From positions 1 to 46,718 of the IMG/VR virus record IMGVR_UViG_3300014489_000003: a stretch of DNA of 46,718 bases, one strand, 5' to 3'. Position numbers and translations under genes: made by a program. The notes under the pieces were generated by a model that did not search any database, was not told the origin of the DNA, and saw only the letters and a list, made by a program, of their open reading frames with translations. This DNA is from a virus. Shown here piece after piece: positions 1,432 through 43,215 of this stretch. How positions within the stretch are numbered: the stretch's first letter is position 1; the number at the start of each line of letters is the position of its first letter.

Positions 1432-1456
1432 CATTGTAGAGAAACTACTCTGCGTC
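1432..1456 (-). promoter_or_regulatory. Promoter-like 25-bp box, variant (GACGCA-N12-TACAATG)
   Basis: Reads GACGCA, 12 bp containing GTTTC, then TACAATG, 14 nt upstream of the ATG at 1417. A weaker member of the eleven-site family, but with the spacing exactly kept. It overlaps the end of the upstream nucleotidyltransferase gene. Confidence 0.5.
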
Positions 1457-2405
1457 AGAACATCCGGTCGATAATCTCCACCAGGTATGCCGCGTTCACC
1501 TTGTCCGGATCCTTCTCCTTCAGCTTCTCAATCAGCTGAAGAAAATAGGCCGTGTCCACACCAGTGAGCTGATCCTCAAGCACCTTCACGTTCGTAAGAT
1601 CTAACTCCGAGATCTGCATCGCCATCTTCAGGATCTGGCCGGCGTTGATTCTCCAACCGCGGCTGATGAACTTGCGCAGCCTGACCACCGAACAGATCGG
1701 GTACTTGCTGCCGACGTAACGTAACTCCTTACACAGAATCGACTCCATCGCCTCAGGCTTCAGCATCAGCGTCTCATTCCAACTCGTCCAGTAAGACGTG
1801 CAGTGAACGAAGTCGTAGTTCGCATGAATCTCATCCGGCGTTCCCTGGAAGCGCAGCACGATCTGAATCTTGTCACTGAGCGTGATCGCATTGCTGGTCA
1901 GGAACACCGGCCTGAACTTCTGCTTGCCATCCGACGTCGTCTCGAGCGCCAGCTTCTCCGTGTCCTCATGCGCATCCATGATCTGGTCGGGCTTATCCAT
2001 CACGTCTGCAACGTAATCCTCGGCAGCCTGTTCAGGATGAGACTCGAAATACTGGTAGGGTTTCTCTGTGCCCCGCTCACTGGCAATGCCGGCAGACTTG
2101 GCTACGATCTTCACGCGCCCATCTGTCGTATCGACGTAGAGATCAACAGCAATGCCGGTACCCTTGCGAGGACGGAACCTGGCAACATAGTAATTCGCCA
2201 CTGCTACCGCAGTCTCGTAGTCGCGCAGATACACGTCAAAATCATTCACAGGCTCGCCCTGCAACATCGACGCGATGCACCCGCCCGTCACCACAATCGA
2301 CCTCGCAACCTGTGCCCGCAGAACCTCATCCTCAATAGACTCCAGCCAGGCCGTCATCTTGCGCGCGATCACCGACTTAATAGACTTCGCCTTCATTCCA
2401 GCCAT
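1455..2405 (-). CDS. Nucleotidyltransferase-fold protein
   Basis: A 316-aa protein. Residues about 35-60 read SIVVTGGCIASML then EPVNDFDVYLRD, which matches the pol-beta-like nucleotidyltransferase pattern: a GG helix-turn followed by a D-x-D metal-binding pair in NDFDVY. Such proteins transfer NMP to RNA, protein or small molecules; the substrate cannot be read from sequence. Residues 80-130 supply a third strand (IAVDLYVDT). The ATG at 2405 is chosen over a GTG one codon earlier because it forms a TGATG junction and has AAGGAG at good spacing. The remaining C-terminal half is helical and of unknown fold. Confidence 0.7.
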   Translation of the reverse strand: MAGMKAKSIKSVIARKMTAWLESIEDEVLRAQVARSIVVTGGCIASMLQGEPVNDFDVYLRDYETAVAVANYYVARFRPRKGTGIAVDLYVDTTDGRVKIVAKSAGIASERGTEKPYQYFESHPEQAAEDYVADVMDKPDQIMDAHEDTEKLALETTSDGKQKFRPVFLTSNAITLSDKIQIVLRFQGTPDEIHANYDFVHCTSYWTSWNETLMLKPEAMESILCKELRYVGSKYPICSVVRLRKFISRGWRINAGQILKMAMQISELDLTNVKVLEDQLTGVDTAYFLQLIEKLKEKDPDKVNAAYLVEIIDRMF

Positions 2406-2665
2406 CACTGCTCCTTCAGAACATCTGTCGCCACTGAATCCGTACGGTTAGCCATCTCCCTACTGATGAACGTCGAGAGACAACCCTCGCCGCATATATG
2501 AATCGCATTCTTCCGAGCCGCTATGCGATCCGTCCACTCAAACACCGCAAACTTGCACCGTCCTGCTCCCTTGAGCAATGCACCACGGAAAGCTGCGAAC
2601 CATTTGTTCGTCTGGCCCTTCTGCTTCCCGCAGATATCGCACGTCGGGATTGTCGGTAAACTCAT
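2405..2665 (-). CDS. Small zinc-binding-like protein, 86 aa
   Basis: Has CDIC near the N-terminus and CGEGC about 50 residues later, a plausible treble-clef or zinc-ribbon pair, with a basic middle. Start ATG 2665 has GGGGAGG upstream. Coupled by TGATG to the nucleotidyltransferase. It may bind nucleic acid; no specific family recognised. Confidence 0.65.
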   Translation of the reverse strand: MSLPTIPTCDICGKQKGQTNKWFAAFRGALLKGAGRCKFAVFEWTDRIAARKNAIHICGEGCLSTFISREMANRTDSVATDVLKEQ

Positions 2666-2675
2666 CCAGCCTCCC

Positions 2676-3530
2676 CTACCAATCCAATAGCTGACTAGCA
2701 AGCTCCCGAGACAGCCCATAAATCTCAGGCAGAGCCTCAGCAGGCTTATAGAAGTAGTTCTTCAGCTGCTTGTCCTGCACATATGCGTTCCACGAAAACA
2801 CCGTGTAAGCATACTGCGATTCCCGCGTAATCTTGTTGACCTTGTCACGCGCCGAAGCAATCAGCCGAGTCCGCAACAACAGAATCGGATCGCCAGCCTT
2901 CAACTCCAATCCCGACTGGACTGATGTGAAGAAACTGTCCGCCTTCTCATCGTTGGTAAGCGAGAACAGATAGTGAAGTCCGATAGCCAGTGATGGAGGC
3001 AACAACATACCACCAGCCCGACCGCAGAGCATAGAAAACAACTTGTTCGACCGGCGCACACCCGGATGCTTGCTCAACAAATGCTCAAGCAACTGCTTGC
3101 TAGGAAGCACGTCATTCTTCCTGTTGGTTATATCACCATGAAACCTGCCAGTACCGTAATCCCAAATGAAGCGCAGACCCGCCGCCAAAGCATTGCTGTT
3201 GAGATCGCCGCGGATATGCAGCACGTCGCCCAGGCTCCGCACACGACCGTCATCCACTGTGTCGAAGACATCATCGTCTGCGCCCTTGACCACCAGCGTA
3301 TCGAATGTAACGTTCGCCTGAATACAAGCCTTCAACCGATGCTGCCCGTCGATGAGCCGCCCAGACTTGCCGAAGATGACTGGCTCGCCGTTCAACTTCC
3401 AACGTCGCGCCTTCATCTCCTGAGCATAGCGATCCACCGTCATCTGCGAGATCGCACGATTGTTAAAGTTCTTGGTGTCGAGAATTTCAACAGCCCGCTG
3501 GGGCGTAATCATTTCCACACTGGAATACAT
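2676..3530 (-). CDS. ParB-like N-terminal domain protein
   Basis: A 284-aa protein. Residues about 5-90 match the ParB/sulfiredoxin-like module common in phages and mobile elements: an N-terminal ITPQ, a RxISQMTVDRYAQEM helix, RRWKLNGEPVIF, then the hallmark GRLIDGQHRLKA followed by VDDGRVRSLGDVL. In this family the GQHR loop binds nucleotide (CTP in true ParB). The C-terminal 190 residues are helical. There is no helix-turn-helix obvious to me and no partner ParA, so a partition role is unlikely. The start at 3530 was chosen because AAGGAGATGACT gives correct spacing; the ATG at 3536 sits on the Shine-Dalgarno itself. Confidence 0.8.
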   Translation of the reverse strand: MYSSVEMITPQRAVEILDTKNFNNRAISQMTVDRYAQEMKARRWKLNGEPVIFGKSGRLIDGQHRLKACIQANVTFDTLVVKGADDDVFDTVDDGRVRSLGDVLHIRGDLNSNALAAGLRFIWDYGTGRFHGDITNRKNDVLPSKQLLEHLLSKHPGVRRSNKLFSMLCGRAGGMLLPPSLAIGLHYLFSLTNDEKADSFFTSVQSGLELKAGDPILLLRTRLIASARDKVNKITRESQYAYTVFSWNAYVQDKQLKNYFYKPAEALPEIYGLSRELASQLLDW

Positions 3531-3532
3531 AG

Positions 3533-3712
3533 TCATCTCCTTAGCTTCTTGCGCTCTTCCTTGTACCTCTTAACCAGCTCAAGTCGTTCCTGCACAACCT
3601 CCGAGTAATCATCGACGTCCTTGCACGACTCAATAAAAGACAATTCCCATTCAATGGCATCATACAAAGCCATCCGCAAAACCTGTGTCGTAGTTAGACG
3701 CTTCGCTGCCAT
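3533..3712 (-). CDS. Small helical hypothetical protein, 59 aa
   Basis: The ATG at 3712 has AAGGAG at 5 nt spacing. The protein is charged, with a Lys/Arg-rich C-terminal helix (KEERKKLRR). The gene end carries the Shine-Dalgarno of the ParB-like gene, so the two are coupled. No family recognised. Confidence 0.65.
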   Translation of the reverse strand: MAAKRLTTTQVLRMALYDAIEWELSFIESCKDVDDYSEVVQERLELVKRYKEERKKLRR

Positions 3713-3721
3713 ATCAGCTCC

Positions 3722-3838: not shown

Positions 3839-4185
3839 TATGCCCTCGTCCACTTTCCGTCAGCGAATATAACCTTGCCAGCATCGCGCAGCTTCTTCAG
3901 GATGGCCACGATGATGTCCGAGTACTCGATGCCGGCAGACTGAGCCAGCCAACGAGAACCATGAGGCTCCGTCTTGGAACACGCCGTCAACAGCTTGATC
4001 GCCATCTCCTTCACAGGCGTGATCTTCGCATCCACCACGTTATGAATCATCGAAGGGAGATAGGATGCGACCTCGACATTCTTCCCATCGATCCGCTTGG
4101 TCAGAAGCACCTGACCCTCCGGAGTAAACAACGTGTCTGCATCCACGACACTGGTATGCCCGTCTTTGAACTGAACCTCGAGCAT
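3838..4185 (-). CDS. Hypothetical protein with winged-helix-like C-terminus, 115 aa
   Basis: The N-terminal 40 residues form a small beta unit (LEVQFKDGHTSVVDADTLF). The C-terminal 70 residues, ending in KKLRDAGKVIFADGKWTRA, look like a winged-helix: two helices then a beta-hairpin wing. This suggests DNA binding, by inference from pattern only. The ATG 4185 has GGGGGAGGA upstream and overlaps the upstream stop as TAATG. Confidence 0.6.
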   Translation of the reverse strand: MLEVQFKDGHTSVVDADTLFTPEGQVLLTKRIDGKNVEVASYLPSMIHNVVDAKITPVKEMAIKLLTACSKTEPHGSRWLAQSAGIEYSDIIVAILKKLRDAGKVIFADGKWTRA

Positions 4186-4553
4186 TAGAGATCCTCCCCC
4201 GTCTTGAGCATGGTCAGCCTGATGGAAGGCTTGATGGCCTTTCGAGGATACAGGCGTGAGAGCCGAACCAGATACTGGCGAAGCTCTGCAGCCGTGGGAT
4301 ACAGACGACGCGCCATCTTGGACGCCTCGCCCTTCCAATCGACCGTGCGACGCAACTGCTGCACGATGACACACTGCAACTGTCCGTAACGCCGAACATC
4401 CTTCGGGCTCAACGTCGCTAACACCTTGGCTGCCGCTGCGTCGTACTTCTTGGCCAGAGCCTTGTACTGTTCGTTGAGATCCTGCAACGCCTCGATCTCA
4501 CGCTTCAGAGCCGCCTCGCCCAGAGGTTCTAGTTTTTCTTTCTTCGCTGCCAT
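4185..4553 (-). CDS. Coiled-coil hypothetical protein, 122 aa
   Basis: Begins MAAKKEKLEPL and continues as an Ala/Lys/Glu-rich helix to about residue 50, followed by a basic helical region. First gene downstream of the promoter-like box at 4575-4599, with GAGGAGCG upstream of the ATG. It may be nucleic-acid binding given its basic C-terminus. No family recognised. Confidence 0.65.
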   Translation of the reverse strand: MAAKKEKLEPLGEAALKREIEALQDLNEQYKALAKKYDAAAAKVLATLSPKDVRRYGQLQCVIVQQLRRTVDWKGEASKMARRLYPTAAELRQYLVRLSRLYPRKAIKPSIRLTMLKTGEDL

Positions 4554-4574: not shown

Positions 4575-4599
4575 CACTATAGATGAAACGTGCTACGTC
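4575..4599 (-). promoter_or_regulatory. Promoter-like 25-bp box (GACGTA-N12-TATAGTG)
   Basis: Perfect consensus: GACGTA, 12 bp ending in GTTTCATC, TATAGTG. It lies 21 nt upstream of the ATG at 4553, in a 50-bp gap. There is no TTGACA-like hexamer at 17 bp from TATAGT. Confidence 0.65.
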
Positions 4600-6066: not shown

Positions 6067-6263
6067 CACACCCTCACTAACTCACCGGCGTCAAGCCAGA
6101 TCGCTCCCGCCTTTGTGATTACCTCTCTCGGCTTGATTACGATCTGCCAGCGCGCTCCGCAACGGCATGACCGCTTCACCACCTGAGTCGCCGATGACAT
6201 ACCAGCAACCGCTGCCAGCTTGCGTCCGCAATCGCCGCACTGAAATCGCAGGGATCGTATCAT
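6066..6263 (-). CDS. Small zinc-ribbon protein, 65 aa
   Basis: CGDC at residues 9-12 and CRC about 22 residues later resemble a zinc ribbon of the RNA-polymerase or transcription-factor type, with basic residues around both knuckles. ATGA overlap at 6263. Role unknown; it could be a transcription or replication accessory protein. Confidence 0.7.
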   Translation of the reverse strand: MIRSLRFQCGDCGRKLAAVAGMSSATQVVKRSCRCGARWQIVIKPREVITKAGAIWLDAGELVRV

Positions 6264-6505
6264 GCCGCCACCCCGATCTCTGCTAGATGCTCGTTGGCTG
6301 CGATCACCGCGTATGCAAGCTCGAACTCTTCCTCGAAACTCTGAGCGAACTCCATGTCCCTGATCGCCTTGGTAAGCCGAGCATCGATGGCTCCCGCTTT
6401 CGCGTCGCCTTCTACGAACAGCCAGAATAGATCGTTCTCCAACGTTTCGAGATTCGCTGGGCTAACATCCTGCTTGGAAACCTTGATGCACTCTGCTGTT
6501 GTCAT
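6260..6505 (-). CDS. Acidic hypothetical protein, 81 aa
   Basis: The start is ATG 6505 behind AAGGAGAACGG; an upstream in-frame start would place the Shine-Dalgarno inside the gene. Helical and acidic. First gene of its transcription unit. The promoter and ribosome binding region are nearly identical to those of the unrelated gene at 30408-30716. Confidence 0.65.
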   Translation of the reverse strand: MTTAECIKVSKQDVSPANLETLENDLFWLFVEGDAKAGAIDARLTKAIRDMEFAQSFEEEFELAYAVIAANEHLAEIGVAA

Positions 6506-6506: not shown

Positions 6507-6571
6507 CCGTTCTCCTTGACCACTCCCCTATTACAACACCATATGGGAAACGTGTCAAGTCTTTATTTTAG
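6507..6571 (-). repeat. Duplicated promoter/RBS cassette, copy 1
   Basis: Two identical blocks shared with 30718-30782: a 26-bp block (6546-6571) containing GACTTGACACGTTTCC, and a 17-bp block (6507-6523) containing TCAAGGAGAACGG, at equal spacing. The genes they serve are not related in sequence, so only the control region was copied or has been maintained. Confidence 0.75.
6530..6561 (-). promoter_or_regulatory. Promoter: TTGACA-17-TGTAAT overlapping a GACTTG-N12-TATGGTG box
   Basis: A canonical -35 TTGACA (6553-6558) and -10 TGTAAT (6530-6535) are spaced by 17 bp. The same DNA carries the 25-bp family element at 6537-6561 (GACTTG, 12 bp with GTTTC, TATGGTG). Either reading places transcription start 15-30 nt before the ATG at 6505. 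Confidence 0.7.
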
Positions 6572-6599: not shown

Positions 6600-8273
6600 T
6601 TACATGCGGTCGCTGCCGACGTACTGAACAGACCCATCAGTGGGGTAGTAACCCAACAGCATCGCCCGAGCCGCATGCGCAATAGCTCTGCACATGACTC
6701 TATCGTCGTGGGCTCCAGGAGTCGCCTCAGGCTTACCAGTCTTACTGCGAACGAACACCAGAGCCTCATCAATGAATGATTGATCCCAGATCAAATCCGG
6801 TGATTCCTTCACAGCCCGATTCAGCATGTTCAGCGCAATCGGACGTGTGCGTGTATTGGTCTGGAATCCATCAAACTCAACTGTCTTCTTCTCACGCTTG
6901 ATCCATTCCTTCGACTTCATTACATTTCCGTATTTACAGTCGCCGGCCAGCACAAGGATCGTGGTACCGCCGTCCATATTTCTCTCGACCATGATCGGAC
7001 AGTCATTGTAGTAACGACCGATATCCGCAAGATCGAAAGCGAAGTCCTCAGGCGTGACCTTCGCACAATATGCTGCCACCTCTTCTCCCGTTGCCAGATC
7101 CAATACGACCGCCGCACAACTATCAGAGTCCGTATCACTGATAGCCTTACCGCTGGCCGTATCCGCACCGATCACATAACGCCGGCCCGGGGCACGCTGA
7201 AAGAAAAACTTCGCCTCGCCCGCATGGTATGTTCTGAATGGCTTGAACATCTGCAACTCCATCCTGCGCGCCACAAGGATGTCCCTATCAAAATAACTCT
7301 TGCCCGAGACAACAAACGCCGTGATCGCCGACTCAGGATACTTCTCGTCGAACTCCACCCCAGGAAACTGCTTCTTGGTTTCCCGTCGCCACGCAACCTG
7401 CTGCAAGTCGATGTGAAATGTATCTATGAGCCTCTTCTCATCTTCCTGCAAATCCGCTGCAAGCTCTTCCTGCTGCTTGGTATCGATCTGAAGTCTATAC
7501 TCGGAACTTTCCCACCATGCGTAAAAGTGAGCCTTGGCATCTGATAAGTCCGGCGAATTCATCGCCAGCATGTACTTGTCAAAGAATGACCCGACCGCTC
7601 CGTTCGCTGTGCATTCCAGATCCAGTGTGCCACCAGGTACCAGAGCGCCGCGGATATTCGCCAGTGTCGCTGCCGGATCCTTCGGCCAGCGCGCATACTC
7701 CGAGCCGATGATGTGATGCAGCGTGATTCCCTGTGCGCCTTCTTCCACCTCAGCCGACTCAACCGACATTCTCGACTCGAGCTGATCGAAGTAAAGTTCT
7801 CGTCTGTTGACGAACTTCGTGTGCAACAGATTCTCTCTGAAGCTGATGTTCACATCGTTCGCTGCGTCATCGTGTGGATCCCTGATGCCGAACATCCTGA
7901 CCGCGCGCTGCGCCATGAGAAAGTGAGTCTCCGCCATCTCACTCTTCTGGCTGACCAGTATCGAGTTGGTTCCCTCAGTAGTGATGACCGGCAGCAGTCC
8001 GCGCACAAGAGCAAAGAATGTTGTGCCACCCATCTGGCGAGACTTCAACAGCAGATTATTCTGAGCCAGCTTGTCGTACAAGTCCTTCTGAATAGCGTTC
8101 AACTTGAAGGGCACCAGTCGCGTAGGCTGCTCAAGCTGCACCTTAGCATCGTCCTGCTTCTGCAGAATCCAAATCATGGATGCTACAAAAACAGGAACGC
8201 CCCAGGCTTTCAATAGCGCCTGGAGCGCCTGCAGCTGATCCTTGCACAACGATTTATCTGGACGTACCGCCAT
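6600..8273 (-). CDS. terL: Terminase large subunit
   Basis: The 557-aa DNA-packaging motor ATPase and nuclease. ATPase domain: a Walker-A-like P-loop, LLLKSRQMGGTT, at residues 74-85; Walker B region, IIGSEYARW, at 188-196, where the catalytic Glu is kept as SE; coupling motif LECTANG at 219-225. Nuclease domain (RNase H fold): D371 in IGADTASG, E430 in MVERNMDGG and D523/D524 in AHDDR form the expected acidic metal-binding triad. The start at 8273 has no clear Shine-Dalgarno and is preceded by a 15-bp palindrome. A small-subunit gene is not identified nearby. The promoter for the downstream unit begins just after its stop. Confidence 0.93.
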   Translation of the reverse strand: MAVRPDKSLCKDQLQALQALLKAWGVPVFVASMIWILQKQDDAKVQLEQPTRLVPFKLNAIQKDLYDKLAQNNLLLKSRQMGGTTFFALVRGLLPVITTEGTNSILVSQKSEMAETHFLMAQRAVRMFGIRDPHDDAANDVNISFRENLLHTKFVNRRELYFDQLESRMSVESAEVEEGAQGITLHHIIGSEYARWPKDPAATLANIRGALVPGGTLDLECTANGAVGSFFDKYMLAMNSPDLSDAKAHFYAWWESSEYRLQIDTKQQEELAADLQEDEKRLIDTFHIDLQQVAWRRETKKQFPGVEFDEKYPESAITAFVVSGKSYFDRDILVARRMELQMFKPFRTYHAGEAKFFFQRAPGRRYVIGADTASGKAISDTDSDSCAAVVLDLATGEEVAAYCAKVTPEDFAFDLADIGRYYNDCPIMVERNMDGGTTILVLAGDCKYGNVMKSKEWIKREKKTVEFDGFQTNTRTRPIALNMLNRAVKESPDLIWDQSFIDEALVFVRSKTGKPEATPGAHDDRVMCRAIAHAARAMLLGYYPTDGSVQYVGSDRM

Positions 8274-12121: not shown

Positions 12122-13195
12122 TCAGCCCCGTACAGTCTCGAATGCTTCACGCCAGCCAGGATGTACCCGGTTGAATGTGTAATGTTTCGTCAACACATTA
12201 TATGCCCTTTGCCCTAAGTCGTTACGCCGACCTTCATCATGAATCAACTCGCGCAACTTAGGCTTCCAATTCCCCTGACCCGCGCAGAGCAGCCAGCGCA
12301 ACTCAGGATCATGACTTGTAAAGTCATCGTAAGGCTTCACCCAACTGGCGAGACAAGGAATCTTGCAGTAAGCAGATTCATACATTTTGATCCCAGACTT
12401 GGCACTATTAAACGGATGGTCTGTCACTGGAGCCAATCCTATATGCCATCCCCAGACCGGCATTCTGGCAGAGAACTCCGCAACCGGAACCCACGGCTTG
12501 TGGTAGAAGTTGCGTATCCTCTTCATGTCCTCGCTGGGATCGCATCCACGGAACTCGATCAATGCGTCAGGCCTCTCATCCGATACCGCATTCAACGCAT
12601 CGTAAGTCATCGCCAGATCGCCAATATGCGAACTTGATCCGCTCCAACCGATGATAAACCTACTACTCTTCCGCGGCGTCGCATACAGCCGCTGATCCAT
12701 CCAATTCTCAGCGACCACCACAGGCACATCACGTCCTGTAAAACGATTCCTCAACGGCTTGACGTTGGCCCTGATCCGCTTCTCCAACGTCTTCGTAGAT
12801 ACGGTCACCAGATCCGTCAACTGAATACAAGCAACAAATCCTTCCCGCATCTGAGTCAGCGGAACATGAGCAGGATTCGACTCCGGCAGATCCCACACAT
12901 CGTCATCCAAGTCGTAGATTATCTTCGACCCGAGCGACCTGCATGTGTTGATGAAGTTGTACTGAGCCTGAGAACAACACCGCTGCACCACGATGATATC
13001 GCAGCCGGCGATCATGTCGAAGTTAGGCTGGTTGGCAAAGCAGTAGAAGCTACTCCCCGGAATGTTTTGATGGGGATAATACATTCTCCACAGAGCACAT
13101 GCGTCAAAGCCACGCGCCAAGGTAGCAGATACTATTTTGCCTGTTGAGCACGGATCATCCCTCCTTCCGCTACCCGCAGAAGACGCTGTTTCCAA
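12122..13195 (-). CDS. Glycosyltransferase, GT4-like (GT-B fold)
   Basis: About 340 aa of family sequence. Typical features are DIIVVQR for the second N-terminal strand, IIYDLDDDVWDLPESNP (a run seen in many phage and capsular GT4-like enzymes), a linker with FIIGWSGSSSHIGD at the start of the C-terminal Rossmann domain, and SGIKMYESAYCKIPCLAS, the E-x7-E-like donor-binding region. The start is uncertain: the only in-frame initiation codon before the domain is a TTG at 13195 with AGGTAAG upstream, giving a 63-nt overlap with the preceding small gene. Probable role is transfer of sugar to virion or envelope glycan. Confidence 0.75.
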   Translation of the reverse strand: METASSAGSGRRDDPCSTGKIVSATLARGFDACALWRMYYPHQNIPGSSFYCFANQPNFDMIAGCDIIVVQRCCSQAQYNFINTCRSLGSKIIYDLDDDVWDLPESNPAHVPLTQMREGFVACIQLTDLVTVSTKTLEKRIRANVKPLRNRFTGRDVPVVVAENWMDQRLYATPRKSSRFIIGWSGSSSHIGDLAMTYDALNAVSDERPDALIEFRGCDPSEDMKRIRNFYHKPWVPVAEFSARMPVWGWHIGLAPVTDHPFNSAKSGIKMYESAYCKIPCLASWVKPYDDFTSHDPELRWLLCAGQGNWKPKLRELIHDEGRRNDLGQRAYNVLTKHYTFNRVHPGWREAFETVRG

Positions 13196-15754: not shown

Positions 15755-15779
15755 CACTATAAAGAAACCCGCCATAGTC
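15755..15779 (-). promoter_or_regulatory. Promoter-like 25-bp box (GACTAT-N12-TATAGTG) inside a terminator
   Basis: GACTAT, 12 bp with GGGTTTC, TATAGTG, ending 16 nt before the ATG at 15738. The upstream half lies in the loop and 3' arm of a rho-independent terminator, so the same bases end one unit and start the next. Confidence 0.6.
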
Positions 15780-15789
15780 TGGCGGGTTC
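15763..15789 (-). terminator. Rho-independent terminator
   Basis: AACCCGCC and GGCGGGTT form a perfect 8-bp stem with a 7-nt loop, followed on the minus strand by TTTCTTTAT. It lies 28 nt after the stop of the gene at 15817-16104. Confidence 0.85.
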
Positions 15790-15816
15790 TTATCGTGCCG
15801 AGCATGCGCCTACTAT

Positions 15817-16830: not shown

Positions 16831-17331
16831 TTAGACCGTTGTTTCAGTTGCATCTGCTCCACTGGCCGCTGCCGTCGTGGACTCGGTCAAAGCCACTGAA
16901 GCCGGCGAAGGAACTGTTGGAGCGGCGGCTGGATGGATGCTCTCGACGGTCGCCGTAGCGAATGCAAACTCCTTCTCGTAGGTCGCAAGCAGAGTCTTGA
17001 CGTCATCCTGCACGTCCTGCTTGATGAGAACGAAGCTGTATCCGGATGGAGCCAGAGCCGCTGCCTGCTGAACAGCCAGCGCGCAGACCGCATCCGTACC
17101 GTCAATCGTAGCCTTCACATCGCCCAGCAACTGCACGCCAGCGTTGAGCAACGATGCAACACCCGGCCCGATGCCAGGAATCAAAGTCGCCGCGGAAGCG
17201 CCCTCAGTCAAAAGCTGGGCAATGACAGGCTCAGACGCATCTACTGCCTGATCCGTCTTGTGAACAATTGCAACCAGGCCGAGTGCGACCTTGCCGAAGA
17301 AATGCTTGATGCTGCTAAAAACGTTTCCCAT
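16831..17331 (-). CDS. Hypothetical Ala-rich protein with hydrophobic centre, 166 aa
   Basis: Contains a Gly/Ala/Pro-rich hydrophobic region (AATLIPGIGPGVASLLNAGV, residues about 48-67) and a low-complexity Ala/Thr/Ser C-terminus. ATG 17331 follows AGGAGAGG; upstream in-frame starts would lie in the promoter region. It may be a membrane-active or structural protein. No family recognised. Confidence 0.55.
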   Translation of the reverse strand: MGNVFSSIKHFFGKVALGLVAIVHKTDQAVDASEPVIAQLLTEGASAATLIPGIGPGVASLLNAGVQLLGDVKATIDGTDAVCALAVQQAAALAPSGYSFVLIKQDVQDDVKTLLATYEKEFAFATATVESIHPAAAPTVPSPASVALTESTTAAASGADATETTV

Positions 17332-17377: not shown

Positions 17378-17402
17378 CATTATACAAGATAGCCCTATCG
17401 TC
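17378..17402 (-). promoter_or_regulatory. Promoter-like 25-bp box (GACGAT-N12-TATAATG)
   Basis: GACGAT, 12 bp, TATAATG (a perfect -10), ending 46 nt before the ATG at 17331. Follows the conserved 33-bp element by 22 bp. Confidence 0.55.
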
Positions 17403-21598: not shown

Positions 21599-24469
21599 CT
21601 AGTGGCAACTCCACGTTGTTCCGTTACTAACGGCGATCATGTAATCACTTCCACCATTTGTGCATGTTCCGGGCGTGTAGGTCAGTGCGTCTGAGACTAT
21701 GACATGTGCTCCCGCACCTGACGTAGCCGCAGATGGTAGTGAGGCTATCGCATAGATCGGAATCGTTACTATACCAGCAGAAGTAACCTGAAACTGATTG
21801 GCCGTGCCGACGTTGAACATGGAAGTTGCGGTGGTGTCGCCGATGCTGACGTTGCCACTGTTTGTGATATTTACCAATGGGGTATCAGCCGAATTATGAA
21901 AGGCGAATGCAGAATAATTCGTCCCAACAGTACCACCATCTACTGAACGGAATAGCATTCCCCAGTTTGAATCAGAATAGATTGAACCTGCACCATAATA
22001 GCCACCACCACCACCAACAATAAATCCTTCTGCTCTTGCGGTTCCATTAACATCTAATGGATAACTCGGTCCCGTCGTCCCGATGCCGACTGGCCCACCT
22101 GTAAACAGGGCAGAGTATGTAGCGTTATTGAAAGTGTTGGTTGCGGTAAACGTATTCGCAGCATTCAGCAACGCCACATTGCTGGCCGCGATTCCGCTGT
22201 CTGCCGCCTGCCCGCCTGTGCCAGTGAAGCTCATCAGGTCGCCGCTAGTCGAACTGGTTGGACCTGTTGTGATGCCGGAGCCGCTGCCAGCCAGAGCTTT
22301 CGAGGATGTGACCGTAGTAGCCGTCGCCGCGATGGGAACCTGGCCCGCTGTCATGCCGCTTACGCCGCTGGAAGTCAGATAGGTATTCGTGTCCAGCGCA
22401 AAAGTACCTGCCGCCGTCATCTTTACGAATGGTGTGCCCGTAGTCCACGTCGGATAATTCAACGCGCCCCATGTGCCTACAGTCGGAGTGCCGGTCAGCA
22501 GGCTATATGGTATCGAACCTGCCGACAACGTGCCTACAGTCGTCAAGCTGCTGCTACCGGCCAGCGGCGATGCACCGATAGTGTTGTAGCTGAGAGTGTA
22601 GGCTGTCGCGCCGTTGAATGCTGTCCCACTTGCCGCGCCAGAGCCGCTGTTATTCATCGTCAGCGCTGCGCCGGTCGAGCCGCCTGTGCAGGTCGTGACA
22701 ATAACTGATCCGCCGCTATCCGTGCCTAAGCAAGCCGCTGATGTATACGGCAACTGTAGTACCACATTGGGCTTTAGCGTTATGTATGCCGTTGTACCAC
22801 CATTCGGGAAAAACAGCACTGAACCTGTAGTACTCAGCGTGCCGCCTAAGCCTGGGTTGGCCTGCATATTCAGCGCTGTGGTTCCTATATTGGTTTCCTG
22901 CCTAATCACGGCGCATGTCGAGCAAGCCGCCGTCTCAGAAACAACGCCTTCCATGTTGCCTTGCGCTACCGCTACCGCTGCTGGCGTAGTACCGTGTACG
23001 CCACGCTGCAACGCATTGAGTGTAGTCAGTCCACCGTAAGGCACATTTACCGACAAACTGGAGTAGATAATTTCTTCTTCACCTGTCGTGATAACTGCCC
23101 CAGCACTCGGCATCCCGCTGACTGAGTTGATAACCATTGATGTGTCACCAGAACCGAGAGGGTATCCAGTAGCAAGCCAAACCTCCCCTGTATACGTCCA
23201 CGGTGCCTGCCACTGGTTGTTGTTCGGACATCCCGCACCATAGCATTGCACGTTCGATGCGTTCTGTACTGGATTCGATCCGATAGCAGTTGCAATCTGC
23301 AAGCCTGTTGCCTGCGTAAAAGCTGAAGTCCCATTACCGTAGAGCACTCCAGTTACAGTTCCAGCATTGCCCGAGCCGCCCTGTGCCGCCAGCAACACAC
23401 CGTAAGTATCCGCATAACCCAGATTGACCTGAGCGGCGCCACTGTCCACTACCCCTGAAGTCACATGCACGAAGCCAGTACCAGTTGGAGCTGCAGTAGG
23501 TGCGATCCAGCTGCGCACTCCTGCAGTCGTCGAACTCAGCACCCATCCATTCGTGCCAGGATTGCCCAGAGCAGGCTCGAAATAACTCGTAGCCTGATAC
23601 GCCGCGGATCCTACTGCGCCGCTTCCCAGCAACACTGAGCCGCTGCCATAGACACCCTTCTCTCCGAACACGCCGCCATTGTTATACTCAATGTCCCCCG
23701 GCGTTCCTCCGGTAATAGTCGTGGTGCCGACCGTGATGCTACTAGCCGGCACTGACGGCGTCGTATATCCACCAGCCCCATTCAAGAAAGTCGTACTCAA
23801 TCCTAATGCACTCAGCGTCACGCCATTGATCGATATCCCTGTCAACGCCGTCGTGGTAGTACCAGCTCCGATAGTCGTAGTTCCCAACACGATAGGAAAT
23901 CCACTCGAGCCTCCACCGCCACCTGTCAGCAACTGCCAGATCGTACCAATGCCCGGAATATTGCCTATGTTATTCGACTGAGTCGACACATAGGTGTACA
24001 CCGGCGAAGTCCCATAGCCTACGATATCGCCGACCGTGTAAGTCGTGGTGGATGCCCACATCCCCTTATACGAAACTGTCGGCGCATTGCCTGACGAAAC
24101 CGCGGTGCCCACATTGAACGGAGTACCCGAGATCAACCACTGGTCAGTGAAATCCACGTTGCCATTCGAATCGATGGCGATCACGTTATAAGGCACGCCA
24201 ACCGGAATCGTACAAGCCGAGCTAGTCAATGTTGGTGGGCTCACCAGAGCGCCGGCCGTCACCGTAACCGTTACCTGTTCGGTCGGCACTACCAGCTTAG
24301 GGCCAGTGCAAGGACTCACTGTGCTGGCCGATGCGTTCTGAGCCAGCGAGAATATCAGTCTGCCATTGAAACCAGAGCCGTCCGGATTGACCACGCTACC
24401 CGACAACAGAGACTGCGCGTGTCCAACTGCGCACGCAAGCACCATCACGATCGGTATGAACCTCTTCAT
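21599..24469 (-). CDS. Large fibre/spike-like protein with Sec signal peptide
   Basis: 956 aa. Residues 1-19 (MKRFIPIVMVLACAVGHAQS) form a classical signal peptide with an A-H-A-Q cleavage site. A beta-rich domain follows, then a long Gly/Thr/Ser/Ala-rich repetitive shaft typical of fibres. Near the C-terminus GIGTTGPSYPLDVNGTA resembles the segments before fibre tips and chaperone domains in many tail fibres. No S74 catalytic signature seen. Start 24469 follows AGGAG. It may be a receptor-binding fibre, or a secreted host-like adhesin, since a signal peptide is unusual for a virion protein. Paralogous N-terminus to 24490-25788. Confidence 0.7.
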   Translation of the reverse strand: MKRFIPIVMVLACAVGHAQSLLSGSVVNPDGSGFNGRLIFSLAQNASASTVSPCTGPKLVVPTEQVTVTVTAGALVSPPTLTSSACTIPVGVPYNVIAIDSNGNVDFTDQWLISGTPFNVGTAVSSGNAPTVSYKGMWASTTTYTVGDIVGYGTSPVYTYVSTQSNNIGNIPGIGTIWQLLTGGGGGSSGFPIVLGTTTIGAGTTTTALTGISINGVTLSALGLSTTFLNGAGGYTTPSVPASSITVGTTTITGGTPGDIEYNNGGVFGEKGVYGSGSVLLGSGAVGSAAYQATSYFEPALGNPGTNGWVLSSTTAGVRSWIAPTAAPTGTGFVHVTSGVVDSGAAQVNLGYADTYGVLLAAQGGSGNAGTVTGVLYGNGTSAFTQATGLQIATAIGSNPVQNASNVQCYGAGCPNNNQWQAPWTYTGEVWLATGYPLGSGDTSMVINSVSGMPSAGAVITTGEEEIIYSSLSVNVPYGGLTTLNALQRGVHGTTPAAVAVAQGNMEGVVSETAACSTCAVIRQETNIGTTALNMQANPGLGGTLSTTGSVLFFPNGGTTAYITLKPNVVLQLPYTSAACLGTDSGGSVIVTTCTGGSTGAALTMNNSGSGAASGTAFNGATAYTLSYNTIGASPLAGSSSLTTVGTLSAGSIPYSLLTGTPTVGTWGALNYPTWTTGTPFVKMTAAGTFALDTNTYLTSSGVSGMTAGQVPIAATATTVTSSKALAGSGSGITTGPTSSTSGDLMSFTGTGGQAADSGIAASNVALLNAANTFTATNTFNNATYSALFTGGPVGIGTTGPSYPLDVNGTARAEGFIVGGGGGYYGAGSIYSDSNWGMLFRSVDGGTVGTNYSAFAFHNSADTPLVNITNSGNVSIGDTTATSMFNVGTANQFQVTSAGIVTIPIYAIASLPSAATSGAGAHVIVSDALTYTPGTCTNGGSDYMIAVSNGTTWSCH

Positions 24470-24489
24470 TGCCATCTCCTTCAACCCGA

Positions 24490-25788
24490 CTACCAGACTT
24501 CAATCCAGCTTACAAGTCCGCCAACCGCTCCCTGTCCTGTCAATGTCACAGAAAACGTATCCCCCGGAGGCACTAGAAACGTGATGCTCGCAGGCACTGT
24601 GCCGCAAAGATTGGATCCATTACTCTGTGGCCCTGACAGTCCTCCGATAGTAGAAATGATCGCCCCATCAGGCCCGCAACCTCCTCCGGCCATGTTCGCT
24701 GTCACTTCTTCCGTAACCGGATACGTCGAGCTATTCGTATACGTCGTCCCTGCCACATAAGTACTTCCGCCCACACAACTCGTAGTCCTGCAATTCGTCT
24801 GCGAAACAGTATGCGGCGTCAGATTTCCAGCTCCGTCGAAATACCCAGGAGCATGACTAGTCGACGGGCTGGCCGTATACGTCGCAACGTAAGATCCTGA
24901 CCCTGGAGCATTCAATCCAATCGTCGTACGTGACGGGGAAGCCGAGTCAGCCGCTGTGAACAACGATGAGAAGTTCAACGCGCTTCTCTGGGTCTGTCCA
25001 GTCCCATTCAAATCCACCGTCTGGTAGTACAACGATGACGCAGCACAGGCAGACCCCGATGACAGGCATACAGCACCAGTACCCGAGACTCCATTGCTCA
25101 ACATGGCCGCTGAGAGCGCAACGCCGGCCACTGTGAAGCCCGACGTCGCATTGATGGTGGCTCCCTGCACCGTACCAGAGGCCGTGACCGTGGTAGCCGT
25201 TACTGTGGGCGTAGTCAGGCTTGTCGAGGCACTCACCGTAGAAGCACTCAACGCTGTCACGCTCAACGTGCCTGAAATGGTCATGCTGCTCGTCACCACC
25301 AGGCTGTTGATCGTCAAACTCGTACCACCAGGCTGCGTAATCGTCTGATTACCTACCGGCGTACTGATAATGGCCTGAGGCACACTCACCGTGATTCCTG
25401 AAGCCATCTGTACATCGCCCAGCGTCCCCACATTCACTGTCCCTGCTGTCGTCTGCGGGATATACCAGTTATCCGAGTACACAGGACGATTCAACGAATC
25501 CTTCACCTGAACGTAATACGGGAGCCGCGGAGATAAACAGCTCGTCGCTAACAGATTCGTTGTCGGGAATGTTCCGCCTGTCACCTTCACCGTCACTCCA
25601 GGCATAGGAACCACAGCCGGCGGAGTCGAGCATGTGTTCACCACCGAAGACTTGGTCAGGCTAATCAGGAATGTCCCCGTAAACGGCGATCCGTCAGGAT
25701 TGGTCACTGTCCCGGAGACAGCAACCGTTTGTGCATGTAAACCCATACACATCCCGAGCAACAACAGAGCTGTCCAGAATCTACACAT
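24490..25788 (-). CDS. Fibre/spike-like protein with signal peptide, paralogue
   Basis: 432 aa. The signal peptide is about residues 1-20 (cleavage after LHA-Q). The next 115 residues share layout and key words with the N-terminus of the larger neighbour (SGTVTNPDGSPFTG, then VPM/VPT, TVKVTGG/TVTVTAG, and a late DNWYI/DQWLI), so both share a beta-sandwich domain. A Thr/Ser/Ala-rich repetitive shaft follows. GAGGGG precedes the ATG. Probably assembles with the larger protein. Confidence 0.65.
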   Translation of the reverse strand: MCRFWTALLLLGMCMGLHAQTVAVSGTVTNPDGSPFTGTFLISLTKSSVVNTCSTPPAVVPMPGVTVKVTGGTFPTTNLLATSCLSPRLPYYVQVKDSLNRPVYSDNWYIPQTTAGTVNVGTLGDVQMASGITVSVPQAIISTPVGNQTITQPGGTSLTINSLVVTSSMTISGTLSVTALSASTVSASTSLTTPTVTATTVTASGTVQGATINATSGFTVAGVALSAAMLSNGVSGTGAVCLSSGSACAASSLYYQTVDLNGTGQTQRSALNFSSLFTAADSASPSRTTIGLNAPGSGSYVATYTASPSTSHAPGYFDGAGNLTPHTVSQTNCRTTSCVGGSTYVAGTTYTNSSTYPVTEEVTANMAGGGCGPDGAIISTIGGLSGPQSNGSNLCGTVPASITFLVPPGDTFSVTLTGQGAVGGLVSWIEVW

Positions 25789-25807
25789 TTCCTGCCCCTC
25801 CGCTACA

Positions 25808-26623
25808 TCACCGATGCCTTCTTTTTGAGTCCTGCGTCATGGTGATCACCTTGCTGGTTACGCTGCTAGGTAAGTCCAGACCATGTCGAGCACCCTTCTC
25901 GAGCACCATCTGTACAATGCTGTTCAACACCTTCTCCGTGCGTGATTCCTTTGCAGCCGTTGTAGCGTTGGCCACCAGAGCCTGAGCCATCAACAGCTTC
26001 TCGAATCCACTACTGTCCGCGAAGTTGATGCCGTGTGCCTTGGCGTACAGATCCTGCGCATACCCGAGCATATGTACTGCACGCTCATGCAACTCCATGT
26101 ACAGTCGTGCCCGCTTTGCATTCTCCTCGAACGACACTCCCTCCGAGAGGAAACGTCCTGAGAAGTCAGTATCGATCTGCTCCATCAGCTTCTCAGCTCT
26201 TACAAATGCGTGAAGCGTGATGCCATTGCCTGCCGATCTTAATGACTCCAGTGCGTTGATCGACTCCTTGATAGCCTTACTATGCGTCTTAAGATTCTCT
26301 TCCGTAAACCATGCACCAGCCTGTCGCTTCTTGACAAAGTCCAGCGGAGTAACGAAATCCCACTCCGTGTTTCTTTCCTTCTCCGGCAGCTCAGGCCCAA
26401 ACAAATAGGTAAGAAAATCGCACTGTTTGTCGTTAATCCCCACTGCCCGAGCCAACATGCGTCCTGACTTATAAAGCGGTCTCCCGCCCTTGTCTATCTT
26501 GCCGCAGAAGTCCTGCCAGAGCATCTGGAGATCCAGCGACCGATAGAATCGCTGCATATCATTCAGTGTTCTGTCCTTCAACCTCGGAGCGACCTTTTTC
26601 TTACTACCCAACTTGGTAGTCAT
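25808..26623 (-). CDS. Helical hypothetical protein, 271 aa
   Basis: Basic N-terminus (KLGSKKKVAPRLKDR), then mostly helical and charged, including a long central helix region (residues 110-200). It ends in KRRHR. Immediately upstream of the fibre genes and coupled by ATGA to a zinc protein. It could be a scaffold or DNA-binding packaging protein; no motif supports a choice. Confidence 0.6.
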   Translation of the reverse strand: MTTKLGSKKKVAPRLKDRTLNDMQRFYRSLDLQMLWQDFCGKIDKGGRPLYKSGRMLARAVGINDKQCDFLTYLFGPELPEKERNTEWDFVTPLDFVKKRQAGAWFTEENLKTHSKAIKESINALESLRSAGNGITLHAFVRAEKLMEQIDTDFSGRFLSEGVSFEENAKRARLYMELHERAVHMLGYAQDLYAKAHGINFADSSGFEKLLMAQALVANATTAAKESRTEKVLNSIVQMVLEKGARHGLDLPSSVTSKVITMTQDSKRRHR

Positions 26624-26883
26624 GCCGTTAGAGCCTGTCGCCTCTCTAGCCGTAACTGTGCCGAGCGCTTACCTAATGCCGAATAGTACTGAACGCCCAG
26701 TTCACGCAGTAGAGTATTCCCTCCCTGCTCCGCGAACGCTGTCCGCTGTTCCTGCGTCTTACGAGACATGTTCGTCCTGCCATGCTCTGACGCGATCCCT
26801 CTGCGACAGCCAGGACAGAACAGTCCGCTGCGACCAGGCACACTCGACAAAGCTTCTGTAGCCGGACACGATGAGCAGGCCAT
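26620..26883 (-). CDS. Zinc-knuckle protein, 87 aa
   Basis: CSSC at residues 3-6 and CPGC at 23-26 form a zinc pair; the remainder is helical and basic. The start at 26883 has a weak Shine-Dalgarno, but the CSSC motif at the very N-terminus supports it over the internal ATG at 26769. ATGA overlap downstream. Confidence 0.55.
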   Translation of the reverse strand: MACSSCPATEALSSVPGRSGLFCPGCRRGIASEHGRTNMSRKTQEQRTAFAEQGGNTLLRELGVQYYSALGKRSAQLRLERRQALTA

Positions 26884-29253: not shown

Positions 29254-30324
29254 TTAGAACGCCGCCTCCATCAACTTGCCAGCCGCCACATCGATGGTCG
29301 TTCTTGCGTCAGCGAACGGAACAGTCTGTGAGTGACGCGTAAGCCCCTGCATCATTCCCCACACCGTCCGCGGATCTCCGTCCTGAGCAGGGATGACCGC
29401 CTCATAGCCAGCATCGATCACCTTACGCGTCAGGCCAAGAGAGCGCATGCCGAACAACTTGTCGAGCACTGACTCCTTGGTGTCGCCGATCTTCAGAGTA
29501 CGCGCTGATGCGATGTTAGCCTCGTCAGCTGCCGCCCCAGAGTCTGCATACCGCTTGATCGCCGCATAGTAACCAGACCACCGCTGCCGAGCATCGCCAA
29601 CGTGACGAACGCTGATGTCCATCACCTTGCTGGCTCCCCAGATGATGTGATTGGAGCACATGGCACGATAGAAGAAACGCGTCAGCTTCAACGCCGATGC
29701 TCCAACCTCAGAATTCTCCACGATGACTCCACGCATGAGGCCATCAGGATTGCCCTCCTCCTTGATGCGATATGAATCGTTGGCCACGAACGCGAACATA
29801 TCGTGGTCACTGGCGTAGAGAGCAGGAAAGTCATGCGCCGTCTTGTTGATGGTAGGCATCGCTGGCTTCCAACCCTGCGTCTCAAGCTGGAGCAACCGCT
29901 CCGCCACTTCCCAATTCCAGATGCGCGCATACTTGTCGCTGGTGAAAGCCCTGAGCAACAGTCCGCCATTCTGATGGAACAGCAGCTTCGCTGTGTTGTT
30001 CTTGTCTGCGAGATTGGCCATCCCGTAATTCAGATTCTGGCAAGCCAGTGTAGCCGGCAGATCGCGCAGGTAAGCCCCAGGAGCGCCGACCCGAGCCGAC
30101 AGCTGCCCGAATGCCCAGTGGGTAAGCTTGGCCGCGTTGTTACGCCGCCCAACGATCTGCACATCCCCATCGATAGCTTCCGTCCGGAGAGCGCCGACCT
30201 CAACTGTGTTTTCTTTGGCTGTTGACGCGTAGGCTTTGCATGCGTCGTGCAGTTCCCGAATGCTGGCAAACCGCTCATCTGCCGGTCTGGTTGACCACTG
30301 CTTGTTAGCGTGAAAAAGTTCCAT
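29254..30324 (-). CDS. DUF932 domain phage/plasmid-like protein
   Basis: 356 aa, matching the DUF932 (phage/plasmid-like TIGR03299) family in order: an N-terminal helix, the central beta-rich part (QIVGRRNNAAKLTHWAFGQL then SARVGAPGAYLRDLP), and the C-terminal ICSNHIIWG-type segment seen here as RAMCSNHIIWGASKV. The function of the family is unknown; it is common in large phages and plasmids. ATG 30324 is chosen because GGAAAGGGAA precedes it and upstream frame codons lie in the promoter. The transcript leader from the box at 30384 is about 55 nt. Confidence 0.85.
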   Translation of the reverse strand: MELFHANKQWSTRPADERFASIRELHDACKAYASTAKENTVEVGALRTEAIDGDVQIVGRRNNAAKLTHWAFGQLSARVGAPGAYLRDLPATLACQNLNYGMANLADKNNTAKLLFHQNGGLLLRAFTSDKYARIWNWEVAERLLQLETQGWKPAMPTINKTAHDFPALYASDHDMFAFVANDSYRIKEEGNPDGLMRGVIVENSEVGASALKLTRFFYRAMCSNHIIWGASKVMDISVRHVGDARQRWSGYYAAIKRYADSGAAADEANIASARTLKIGDTKESVLDKLFGMRSLGLTRKVIDAGYEAVIPAQDGDPRTVWGMMQGLTRHSQTVPFADARTTIDVAAGKLMEAAF

Positions 30325-30383
30325 TGGTTCCCTTTCCGGCGACTGTGGAGATTGCATCCTCCAACCGTGCCTCTTACTACACT

Positions 30384-30408
30384 CACTATAGATTATTGCA
30401 TCTACGTC
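30384..30408 (-). promoter_or_regulatory. Promoter-like 25-bp box (GACGTA-N12-TATAGTG)
   Basis: Perfect in both halves, ending 59 nt before the ATG at 30324. It starts at the very last base of the preceding gene (stop TAG at 30408-30410). Confidence 0.65.
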
Positions 30409-30716
30409 TAACGCATAGAACCTGATGCCACATACTCCAGCATACGCAGCGACATTGCAGAGCCGATGGCAACCTGAAGATCGTTCCACTCGCTATCCTC
30501 ATGTAGCATGTCATGCACGATCCCCACCAGACAGGCTGCCTCGCCATCCGTCAGCGTTCGCACCGTCGATGAAGTCTCGCCCAGAGCATACAACACCTGA
30601 TAAGCGCGACTGCGTAGAGACAACGAATCCAAGCATCCGACCAAAGCTGGCATACCCAGCACCACTGCCCGTTGCCGATCCTCAGCCAACTCCGCAATTC
30701 TTGATGTCGTCTTCAT
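30408..30716 (-). CDS. Hypothetical helical protein, 102 aa
   Basis: The start is ATG 30716 behind AAGGAGAACGG, as in the gene at 6260-6505. Ala/Leu-rich helices, no motif. Its control region is a near-copy of the one at 6507-6571, while the proteins are unrelated. Directly followed by a new promoter box. Confidence 0.6.
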   Translation of the reverse strand: MKTTSRIAELAEDRQRAVVLGMPALVGCLDSLSLRSRAYQVLYALGETSSTVRTLTDGEAACLVGIVHDMLHEDSEWNDLQVAIGSAMSLRMLEYVASGSMR

Positions 30717-30717: not shown

Positions 30718-30782
30718 CCGTTCTCCTTGACCACGTCCCTATATTCGCACTATACAGGAAACGTGTCAAGTCTTTATTTTAG
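30718..30782 (-). repeat. Duplicated promoter/RBS cassette, copy 2
   Basis: Identical 26-bp (30757-30782) and 17-bp (30718-30734) blocks shared with 6507-6571, with the same spacing. Confidence 0.75.
30748..30772 (-). promoter_or_regulatory. Promoter-like 25-bp box (GACTTG-N12-TATAGTG)
   Basis: GACTTG, 12 bp with CGTTTCC, TATAGTG, ending 31 nt before ATG 30716. Contains TTGACA, but here TATAGT is only 9 bp away; a -10 at 17-18 bp (AATATA) is possible. Confidence 0.6.
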
Positions 30783-30957: not shown

Positions 30958-31533
30958 CTACTTCTTCGGCTCCGCCTTGTCAACAGGTTTGTCGTCAGGC
31001 TTCGCTGGCACAGTCCAGACCTGCCTCTGATCGTCGAACGTCGCATCGTCAGGCAGACCCTGCTCCTTCTTCACGATGCCCTCGAGCGTCTGCAATGTCT
31101 GTAGTGGAGCAACCTGACCCTGCAACCCGCCGACCTTCTGCTGAAACTCCGCCGTGGCCGTGTCCCCATTCTTCTTCAGCTGAGCCTGCAAGTCCTTGGT
31201 GTCCTCGTCAATCTTGGCCTGCCACTTCGCCGACTTCGCTTTGATCTCATCCACGATCGGTTTATTCTTCGCATCCAAAGCTGTGCGCGCCTGCTGCAAC
31301 AAATCGTTAATAACCTTGGATGTGTCCGCGTTCTTCTTCGCCACATCCACCAGAGCATCTTCTGTCGGGCTGCTCTTGACCGCGATCTCCGTAGTCGCGT
31401 GATACTGCTGCACCACCAGAGGCTTGTCCGCTGGAGCCTGAGCGCGCGCGGGATGAAGCACCATCGCCGCAAAAAACACAGCCACAATCATCCCCAAAGT
31501 AAACCAAAGCATGTCTGACAATAACTTCTTCAT
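30958..31533 (-). CDS. Secreted or inner-membrane-anchored coiled-coil protein, 191 aa
   Basis: N-terminal hydrophobic segment with AQA-type end (MLWFTLGMIVAVFFAAMVLH, then PARAQA) acts as signal peptide or anchor. Residues 50-150 are Lys/Ala/Gln/Asp-rich heptads. A Lys/Pro/Asp tail follows. ATG 31533 follows GGGAGG. It may act in the periplasm; a superinfection-exclusion or lysis role is possible but not shown. Confidence 0.6.
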   Translation of the reverse strand: MKKLLSDMLWFTLGMIVAVFFAAMVLHPARAQAPADKPLVVQQYHATTEIAVKSSPTEDALVDVAKKNADTSKVINDLLQQARTALDAKNKPIVDEIKAKSAKWQAKIDEDTKDLQAQLKKNGDTATAEFQQKVGGLQGQVAPLQTLQTLEGIVKKEQGLPDDATFDDQRQVWTVPAKPDDKPVDKAEPKK

Positions 31534-31548: not shown

Positions 31549-31573
31549 CATAATAGATTACTCAGCCTACGTC
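31549..31573 (-). promoter_or_regulatory. Promoter-like 25-bp box (GACGTA-N12-TATTATG)
   Basis: GACGTA, 12 bp, TATTATG, ending 15 nt before ATG 31533. The TAG stop of the upstream gene is inside GACGTAG. Confidence 0.6.
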
Positions 31574-42169: not shown

Positions 42170-42193
42170 CAGAAGCCTCCATTTTTCGTCTTG

Positions 42194-42523
42194 CTATACG
42201 GCTTCCGCCTGAACCATCTTCTGATACAACGTGCGTACCTGCTTTATTCTAAGCAATACGCGCTTCGTCTCGTTCTTGTATTCCCGAGCACTGATGCTCG
42301 ATTCTGCCAACCGAGCCTGCATGACCACCTGCCACGCAGCCAGGTACTTGTCGATGCCGTCCTGAATAACCTCATCCGCAGACATCTGCAAGCCTTCAGC
42401 ATTATCCGGCAGACGAGAGCTGACCGATGTGAAATGAGTCGTGCCAGCACCGTAAGATGTGTCCGCGATCTGCACACTCACCGTCACACCGCATATTCCG
42501 AGTTTGCTAATCGGCTTACTCAT
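42194..42523 (-). CDS. Hypothetical protein, 109 aa
   Basis: The N-terminus (ISKLGICGVTVSVQIAD) is beta-rich; the rest is helical. ATG 42523 overlaps the previous gene by 8 nt. It resembles small phage replication-cluster proteins by position only. Confidence 0.55.
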   Translation of the reverse strand: MSKPISKLGICGVTVSVQIADTSYGAGTTHFTSVSSRLPDNAEGLQMSADEVIQDGIDKYLAAWQVVMQARLAESSISAREYKNETKRVLLRIKQVRTLYQKMVQAEAV

Positions 42524-42683
42524 CTTCTATCTGCACCTCAAGCGTCGTCACCGAATCCATCACAGCTACACACTGAGTCGGATCGAACACAGGCCGATGC
42601 AACGGATGCCCGAACGGATACACCTTCTCTCCGTCCAAGCACTCAAGTACCCGCGCCAGAGCAACTGCATTCTCAATCGACAT
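42516..42683 (-). CDS. Hypothetical protein, 55 aa
   Basis: ATG 42683 behind AGGAGAAGG. Short alpha/beta protein (IENAVALARVLECLDGEKVY). Overlaps both neighbours. No family recognised. Confidence 0.6.
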   Translation of the reverse strand: MSIENAVALARVLECLDGEKVYPFGHPLHRPVFDPTQCVAVMDSVTTLEVQIEDE

Positions 42684-43185
42684 CCTTCTCCTCGTCAGGT
42701 TGAACCTGATTCCTGCGTGCATCCAACGTCCGTGCCCGAGCGTGAATCTTGCGCGTCTGCTCGATGCGCTCTACTTCTTTGGAGCCGCGCATGCCCTCAG
42801 CAATCTGCGTCTCAGCGATCACGCGGATAGCGTCACGCCGCATGCGATAAGCCTCGAGGATCAACTTCGACAGTTCCTCCACCTCGTAGGCACGCTCCAT
42901 ACTGCCGCGCAGAGTACGAACCACTGTCTGGGTTTCCACCTTGTCCTTCACACCAGCATCCGTCATCTTTTTCTCGCCAGCGGTGCTATTTCTAGCCCGC
43001 AGCACCAGAGCGACCCGACTACGCGTAGCATCCAACTCCGCTGCAGCCTGAGCACGGCCACGCATCGCAGCCACACGATACCGCGCCGCATCGATAAACA
43101 AGATCGGCTGACGTGCTGCTTCTGCCAGGATATTCTCGTCCACCAGCGCGAGACTCTGAATCAACGATTCTGCTGTAATAGCCAT
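42673..43185 (-). CDS. Helical basic protein, possibly translated from a leaderless mRNA, 170 aa
   Basis: Ala/Arg-rich helices throughout, with a basic C-terminus. ATG 43185 has no Shine-Dalgarno; the promoter-like TATAGT at 43192-43197 would place transcription start at or within a few bases of the ATG. Alternative internal starts would remove the helical N-terminus. Function unknown. Confidence 0.55.
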   Translation of the reverse strand: MAITAESLIQSLALVDENILAEAARQPILFIDAARYRVAAMRGRAQAAAELDATRSRVALVLRARNSTAGEKKMTDAGVKDKVETQTVVRTLRGSMERAYEVEELSKLILEAYRMRRDAIRVIAETQIAEGMRGSKEVERIEQTRKIHARARTLDARRNQVQPDEEKDVD

Positions 43186-43190
43186 ACACT

Positions 43191-43215
43191 CACTATAGAG
43201 AATTGAGCCTACGTC
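43191..43215 (-). promoter_or_regulatory. Promoter-like 25-bp box (GACGTA-N12-TATAGTG)
   Basis: Perfect in both halves. Only 5 nt separate TATAGTG from the ATG at 43185. The GACGTAG includes the stop of the NADAR gene. Confidence 0.65.

Follow-up and report, generated by a model that had tools for sequence, protein, structure and literature searches.

Middle promoters of bacteriophage T4 are activated through sigma appropriation by MotA and AsiA (PMC2988021, PMC6755090) and carry a MotA box, TGCTT, at 12 ± 1 bases from the −10 element (PMC2988021). Here, we describe a motif of comparable layout, GACGTA-N12-TATAGTG with close variants, in the virus contig IMGVR_UViG_3300014489_000003 (46,718 bases, 54% G+C), a genome fragment that was analysed over its full length and is called the window below. 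All 79 called genes of the window lie on the minus strand; they encode a DNA polymerase, a UvsX-like recombinase, an SSB-like protein, a clamp loader and a fused SbcCD-like nuclease, as well as a terminase, a GroES-like protein and HNH endonucleases. The closest relative, R (IMGVR_UViG_3300048503_000032; 106,772 bases), is syntenic with the window at mostly ~70–93% nucleotide identity and, since the window spans both ends of R, is taken as a near-complete genome. Contig G001 provided a third sequence for comparison and contig G002 is 99.5% identical to R. A first-pass annotation had listed eleven sites in the window, all of which are present on the minus strand, and had read them as promoters resembling the T4 middle class. 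That reading is upheld by the strand, position and spacing of the sites, by their conservation and by their distance from start codons, and we give a probability of about 0.7 to the sites forming a single phage-specific promoter class with a function like that of T4 middle promoters.

The motif is real. Across the window and R, GAC[G/T] followed at a gap of 15 by TA[T/C]NRTG occurs 30 times on the coding strand, with no occurrence at gaps 14 and 16 and none on the reverse strand at gap 15. Regions outside called genes, ~12% of the DNA, hold 22 of the 30 matches. In the window, the heptamer TATAGTG has seven copies on the coding strand and none on the opposite one, and the same counts are obtained in R; six of the seven copies in each sequence have GAC exactly 15 bases upstream. 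Every intergenic copy in the window has this GAC, the sole in-gene copy lacks it and the exception in R is likewise in-gene. Among 118 contigs of other phages (1.07 Mb) there are 49 copies of TATAGTG, none with GAC at this distance. With no motif preset, GAC-15-TATAGT is the commonest trimer–gap–hexamer pair in the noncoding DNA of the window, tied with one-base-shifted versions of the same sites; in the noncoding DNA of R, which holds a tRNA array, other such pairs rank above it. A fixed-spacing score of at least 18 was used as the support threshold and is reached in the window by 11 places on the coding strand and none on the reverse strand, compared with 0.6 in dinucleotide shuffles. Ten of these are sites from the first-pass list and one (12196) lies inside a gene. 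The simple pattern with two mismatches shows no enrichment (32 matches versus 28.5 expected); the signal resides in exact or near-exact matches at fixed spacing. An iterated position matrix drifted into weak in-gene matches and was abandoned in favor of fixed-spacing counts. That all sites read along the coding strand, as first reported, is true but follows the orientation of every gene in the window; it becomes informative through the antisense control, in which the motif is absent. Equal frequency inside genes or on both strands, which the first-pass annotation had named as grounds for refuting its reading, is not what the sites show.

For ten of the eleven listed sites, a counterpart was located in R. 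The original observation of GAC-x3, 12 bases and a TATAGTG-like element is sound and stronger than first presented. Over the ten pairs, identity is 100% for GAC, 91% for the −10 heptamer, 79% for the spacer and 50–62% for the flanks. The counterpart of 8801 (R 41156) occupies the equivalent place among unrelated flanks, and that of 30384 (R 16424) keeps the box and −10 beside an unrelated upstream flank. At 4575, all 25 bases are identical in R 45567 and in the third contig, and the 40 bases upstream are unrelated to those of R. Sites 1432 and 21569 had both been suspected of arising by chance. For 1432 this is contradicted by an 18-base box and spacer identical in R 47544; for 21569 (21569–21593, minus strand, GACGCT...TGTAATC) it is borne out, with a score of 15.5, a level attained at 43 window positions and at 19 in shuffles, and with no counterpart found in R. 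The conserved core comprises GACG, T at motif position 14, T17, C18 and TATARTG, with the GTA of GACGTA less fixed. The T at position 14 (−17), absent from the earlier description, is present in 20 of 23 intergenic versus seven of 22 in-gene matches. The GTTTC seen earlier in six spacers was counted correctly, but it occurs in two registers and is missing from some R counterparts; the T at position 14 alone is constrained, and GTTTC was rejected as a separate element.

For prediction of the transcription start (+1), TATART was taken as the −10 element, which places the GACG box at −30 to −27 and TATARTG at −12 to −6, usually with TC directly before the −10. Sites of this kind (class A) do not show the canonical sigma70 layout, a TTGACA-like −35 at 16–18 bases from TATAAT: their best −35 match at spacings of 15–19 averages 2.85 of six positions versus 2.81 at random positions. 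TTGACA is present at 6537 and 30748, which belong to a second group (class B, below). Three independent sites put the predicted +1 precisely at the start codon, namely 43191 together with its R counterpart (R 3648, which retains the box, the −10 and the 5-base gap to ATG), R 101752 and R 81356, and the genes concerned are predicted to give leaderless messages. The gene at R 81356 encodes a helicase and starts with GTG; the product at R 101752 appears beta-clamp-like to our eye and has no match in Pfam or PHROGs. Most other start codons lie ~13–60 bases beyond the predicted +1. The description of the sites as standing in gaps directly upstream of genes applies generally, with 8801 as an exception. 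Most sites open gene blocks in the non-structural part of R, a block of replication genes being one of those served by the class, and among the matches listed there are no class A sites in R 51–81 kb, which carries the head and tail genes. The features point most likely to a promoter class whose usual bacterial −35 is replaced by a GAC box at a constant distance of 15 bases from the −10; a search of the literature on TATAGTG phage promoters returned nothing on the present motif among the papers listed.

As in T4 middle promoters, a phage box near −30 would stand in for the −35 at ~12 bases from a sigma70-like −10, the sites serve replication and recombination genes, and there are probably separate early and late classes. 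The box is, however, GACG(TA) rather than TGCTT, a single rigid spacing is used, the −10 favors TATAGTG and no MotA or AsiA homologue was found. A TGn extended −10 occurs in about half of the T4 promoters, whereas the equivalent bases here are mostly NTC, with TG in register at R 31346 alone among class A sites. The sites are a T4-like middle promoter class by analogy and not by membership, as box, spacing behavior and proteins all differ. Most likely, host RNA polymerase reads them with a specificity factor that the phage supplies. The constancy of the 15-base gap is mild evidence for a single complex recognizing the two elements in a set geometry, and the T4 analogy favors an activator working with host sigma (PMC2988021). 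Unmodified host polymerase would transcribe the TTGACA cassettes first, an early-made phage protein would then confer recognition of the GAC box on the host enzyme, and structural genes would follow later from another motif. On this interpretation the motif defines, at the sequence level, a regulon in an uncultivated phage lineage that is amenable to testing, and suggests that substitution of the −35 by a phage box at −30 has arisen, through different proteins, in phages outside the T4 group.

Several points weigh against this account. The MotA and AsiA families (PF09158, PF09114 and PF09010) are absent from the window, R and G001 in searches that matched the T4 positive control. The tolerance of T4 for spacings of 12 ± 1 differs from the rigid spacing here, which could instead indicate a sigma-like factor reading both elements. 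A host sigma with an unusual preference is possible. The 20-site consensus takes in orthologous pairs and score-selected sites, and promoter function and start points are predictions from sequence.

T4-like phages carry repeated early-promoter cassettes. Class B resembles these in that strong TTGACA promoters are repeated before unrelated small genes, and differs in also containing GAC-N15-TATRGTG. The set comprises window 6537 and 30748 and R 16043, 43410, 56839 and 91697, which have ~60–80 bases in common and precede small genes of several unrelated kinds; the 30748 cassette has paralogous cassettes in both window and R. Every member contains GACTTGACACGTT, in which a full TTGACA is followed 16 or 17 bases later by a plausible second −10, and also has the GAC-N15-TATRGTG pair. 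Within the first-pass list, 6537 and 30748 are copies of one repeated promoter cassette. In our reading, the class B cassettes are putative early promoters for host sigma70 that a class A motif overlaps, and they may be used at two times through a dual early/middle start. The structural genes of R instead carry a further motif, GTAGTTCGCTGTTG, with four copies (50869, 54068, 66325 and 69381), one of which has a mismatch. Each copy lies in a gap preceding a gene of the structural region, and the opposite strand of R has none; the motif is likely to be a late-gene promoter or activator site.

The earlier proposal that a phage activator or sigma factor reads GACGTA found a single candidate, outside the window: a 524-residue protein of R (R 94038–95612) with a Cys-rich stretch, a Lys/Ala-rich linker and a partial sigma-70 region 2 match (7e-5 in a single-genome search, 0.004 against all of Pfam, below the cut-off). 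No isolated phage has a protein that matches it. A rigid spacing is characteristic of certain alternative sigmas. A phage sigma-like factor of this kind would direct host core polymerase to GACG-N14-TATARTG and read both elements itself; the motif nearest upstream of its gene is an early-type class B cassette (R 91697). The reading is nevertheless unlikely, if credible: just 25 residues match, a search of R for sigma region 4 gave nothing (a match to this region in the window sits in an HNH endonuclease gene), the gene lies outside the window, the protein could equally serve late genes and a structure model computed without an alignment is too poor to use, with a mean predicted local distance difference test score (pLDDT) of 36. 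We regard as doubtful the more specific version, in which a protein whose sole sigma-like part is a core-binding segment resembling region 2, with C-terminal domains of unrelated kind, would replace host sigma, read the rigid GACG/TATARTG promoter and give partly leaderless replication mRNAs independently of MotA/AsiA. Promoters of alternative sigmas, such as those of the extracytoplasmic function (ECF) group, also have two elements at a fixed distance; the present sites differ in the lack of a GGAAC-type −35 and in a shorter distance from box to −10. The motif and the sigma-like candidate together offer a concrete starting point for finding the factor.

Ordinary promoters of host sigma70, or of a host alternative sigma, with a weak −35 would require no phage factor. 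The −10 resembles the sigma70 consensus, and class B, with its canonical TTGACA and a plausible −10 at 16–17 bases, indicates that host sigma is probably used somewhere in the phage. As an account of class A this is improbable, as a fixed GAC at −30 with a random-level −35 is unlike relaxed sigma70 promoters and the motif was not seen in the other phage contigs. The rigid, asymmetric, repeated 25-base sites upstream of genes might alternatively be operators of a phage repressor that overlap start regions; we hold the chance of this to be slight, since start-codon distances and a −10-like core are explained by initiation rather than repression and the orientation is always along transcription. 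T7 promoters contain CACTATAG, and the complement of TATAGTG is CACTATA, which resembles the T7-type core; antisense promoters of a phage single-subunit RNA polymerase are nonetheless largely refuted, because that polymerase (PF00940) is absent from window and R with a positive T7 control, no called gene of the window lies on that strand, the orientation is wrong, the base following CACTATA is variable (G, A or C) with no fixed +1 G and the conserved GAC would be downstream. An RNA polymerase beta-subunit domain is likewise absent, these being the two RNA polymerase families searched.

Table 1. Supported sites and an extra in-gene match in the window, their counterparts in R and the genes that follow them (motif elements 5′ to 3′ on the minus strand).
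Positions	Strand	Class	Motif	Score or match	R counterpart	Downstream gene and remarks
43191–43215	minus	A	GACGTA-N12-TATAGTG	exact match	R 3648	gene 42673–43185, predicted leaderless (predicted +1 = A of ATG); heads SSB-like/UvsX-like/clamp-loader block
31549–31573	minus	A	GACGTA-N12-TATTATG	20	R 14801	gene 30958–31533, ATG 15 bases beyond the site
30748–30772	minus	B	GAC-N15-TATAGTG overlapping TTGACA-N17-GAATAT		R 16043	small gene 30408–30716
30384–30408	minus	A	GACGTA-N12-TATAGTG		R 16424	DUF932 gene 29254–30324
17378–17402	minus	A	GACGAT-N12-TATAATG	19.5	R 31346	gene 16831–17331
15755–15779	minus	A	GACTAT-N12-TATAGTG		R 33055	merged with terminator-like hairpin, box in loop
8801–8825	minus	A	GACGTA-N12-TATAGTG	exact match	R 41156	terminase gene 6600–8273, the next called gene, ~530 bases away
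6537–6561	minus	B	GAC-N15-TATGGTG overlapping TTGACA-N17-TGTAAT		R 43410; also third contig	small gene 6260–6505
4575–4599	minus	A	GACGTA-N12-TATAGTG		R 45567	gene 4185–4553
1432–1456	minus	A	GACGCA-N12-TACAATG		R 47544	gene 1199–1417
12196–12220	minus		GACTTA-N12-TATAATG	18.5 (window and R)		extra match inside glycosyltransferase gene

The extra match at 12196 is a possible internal promoter; its conservation is uninformative because the region is 93% identical overall. The terminator-like hairpin fused with the promoter at 15755 lies within 15755–15800 of the window and L013:13040–13080 of R. Its stem differs in R and in the third contig, with GAC staying in the loop and TATAGTG following.

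When the DNA polymerase, UvsX-like and sigma-like proteins served as queries in scans for further relatives, R and a near-identical fragment were the sole hits, and protein searches with the DNA polymerase, terminase, UvsX-like protein and helicase gave only distant matches among isolated phages. Stenotrophomonas phage BUCTxx99, matched by the UvsX-like protein, was set aside, as its gene content differs and its single TATAGTG has no GAC 15 bases upstream. A scan with the DUF932 protein led to contigs that have that gene alone in common with R and show at most scattered opposite-strand matches to the motif.

A hairpin with a conserved internal loop, CACGGU(U/A)/CACAGU, is present in the DUF932 gene leader (window 30325–30375, minus strand). 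The loop recurs at L012:16462 (R), L159:9953, L160:9954, L162:9960 and L163:5393 with differing stems, and its strands are in swapped order (circular permutation) in two contigs. It stands before DUF932 genes, at ~50–60% protein identity, in phage contigs that are otherwise unrelated, is absent from the more distant homologues checked and has no credible Rfam match; it is possibly a new structured RNA element. A permuted transfer-messenger RNA (tmRNA) gene was detected in R (L012:15503–15875; RF04321, 84.5 bits) near the class B cassette at R 16043, and none was detected in the window. The transfer RNA (tRNA) array of R consists of 29 genes on one strand at 95.7–101.1 kb (L016:15711–19934 and L017:19–1146), with the class A site R 101158 directly downstream of it. 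Finally, tandem repeats of ~120 bases, recognized by repeated BLAST matches, occupy R 25440–26150 within a large gene (R 22450–26724).

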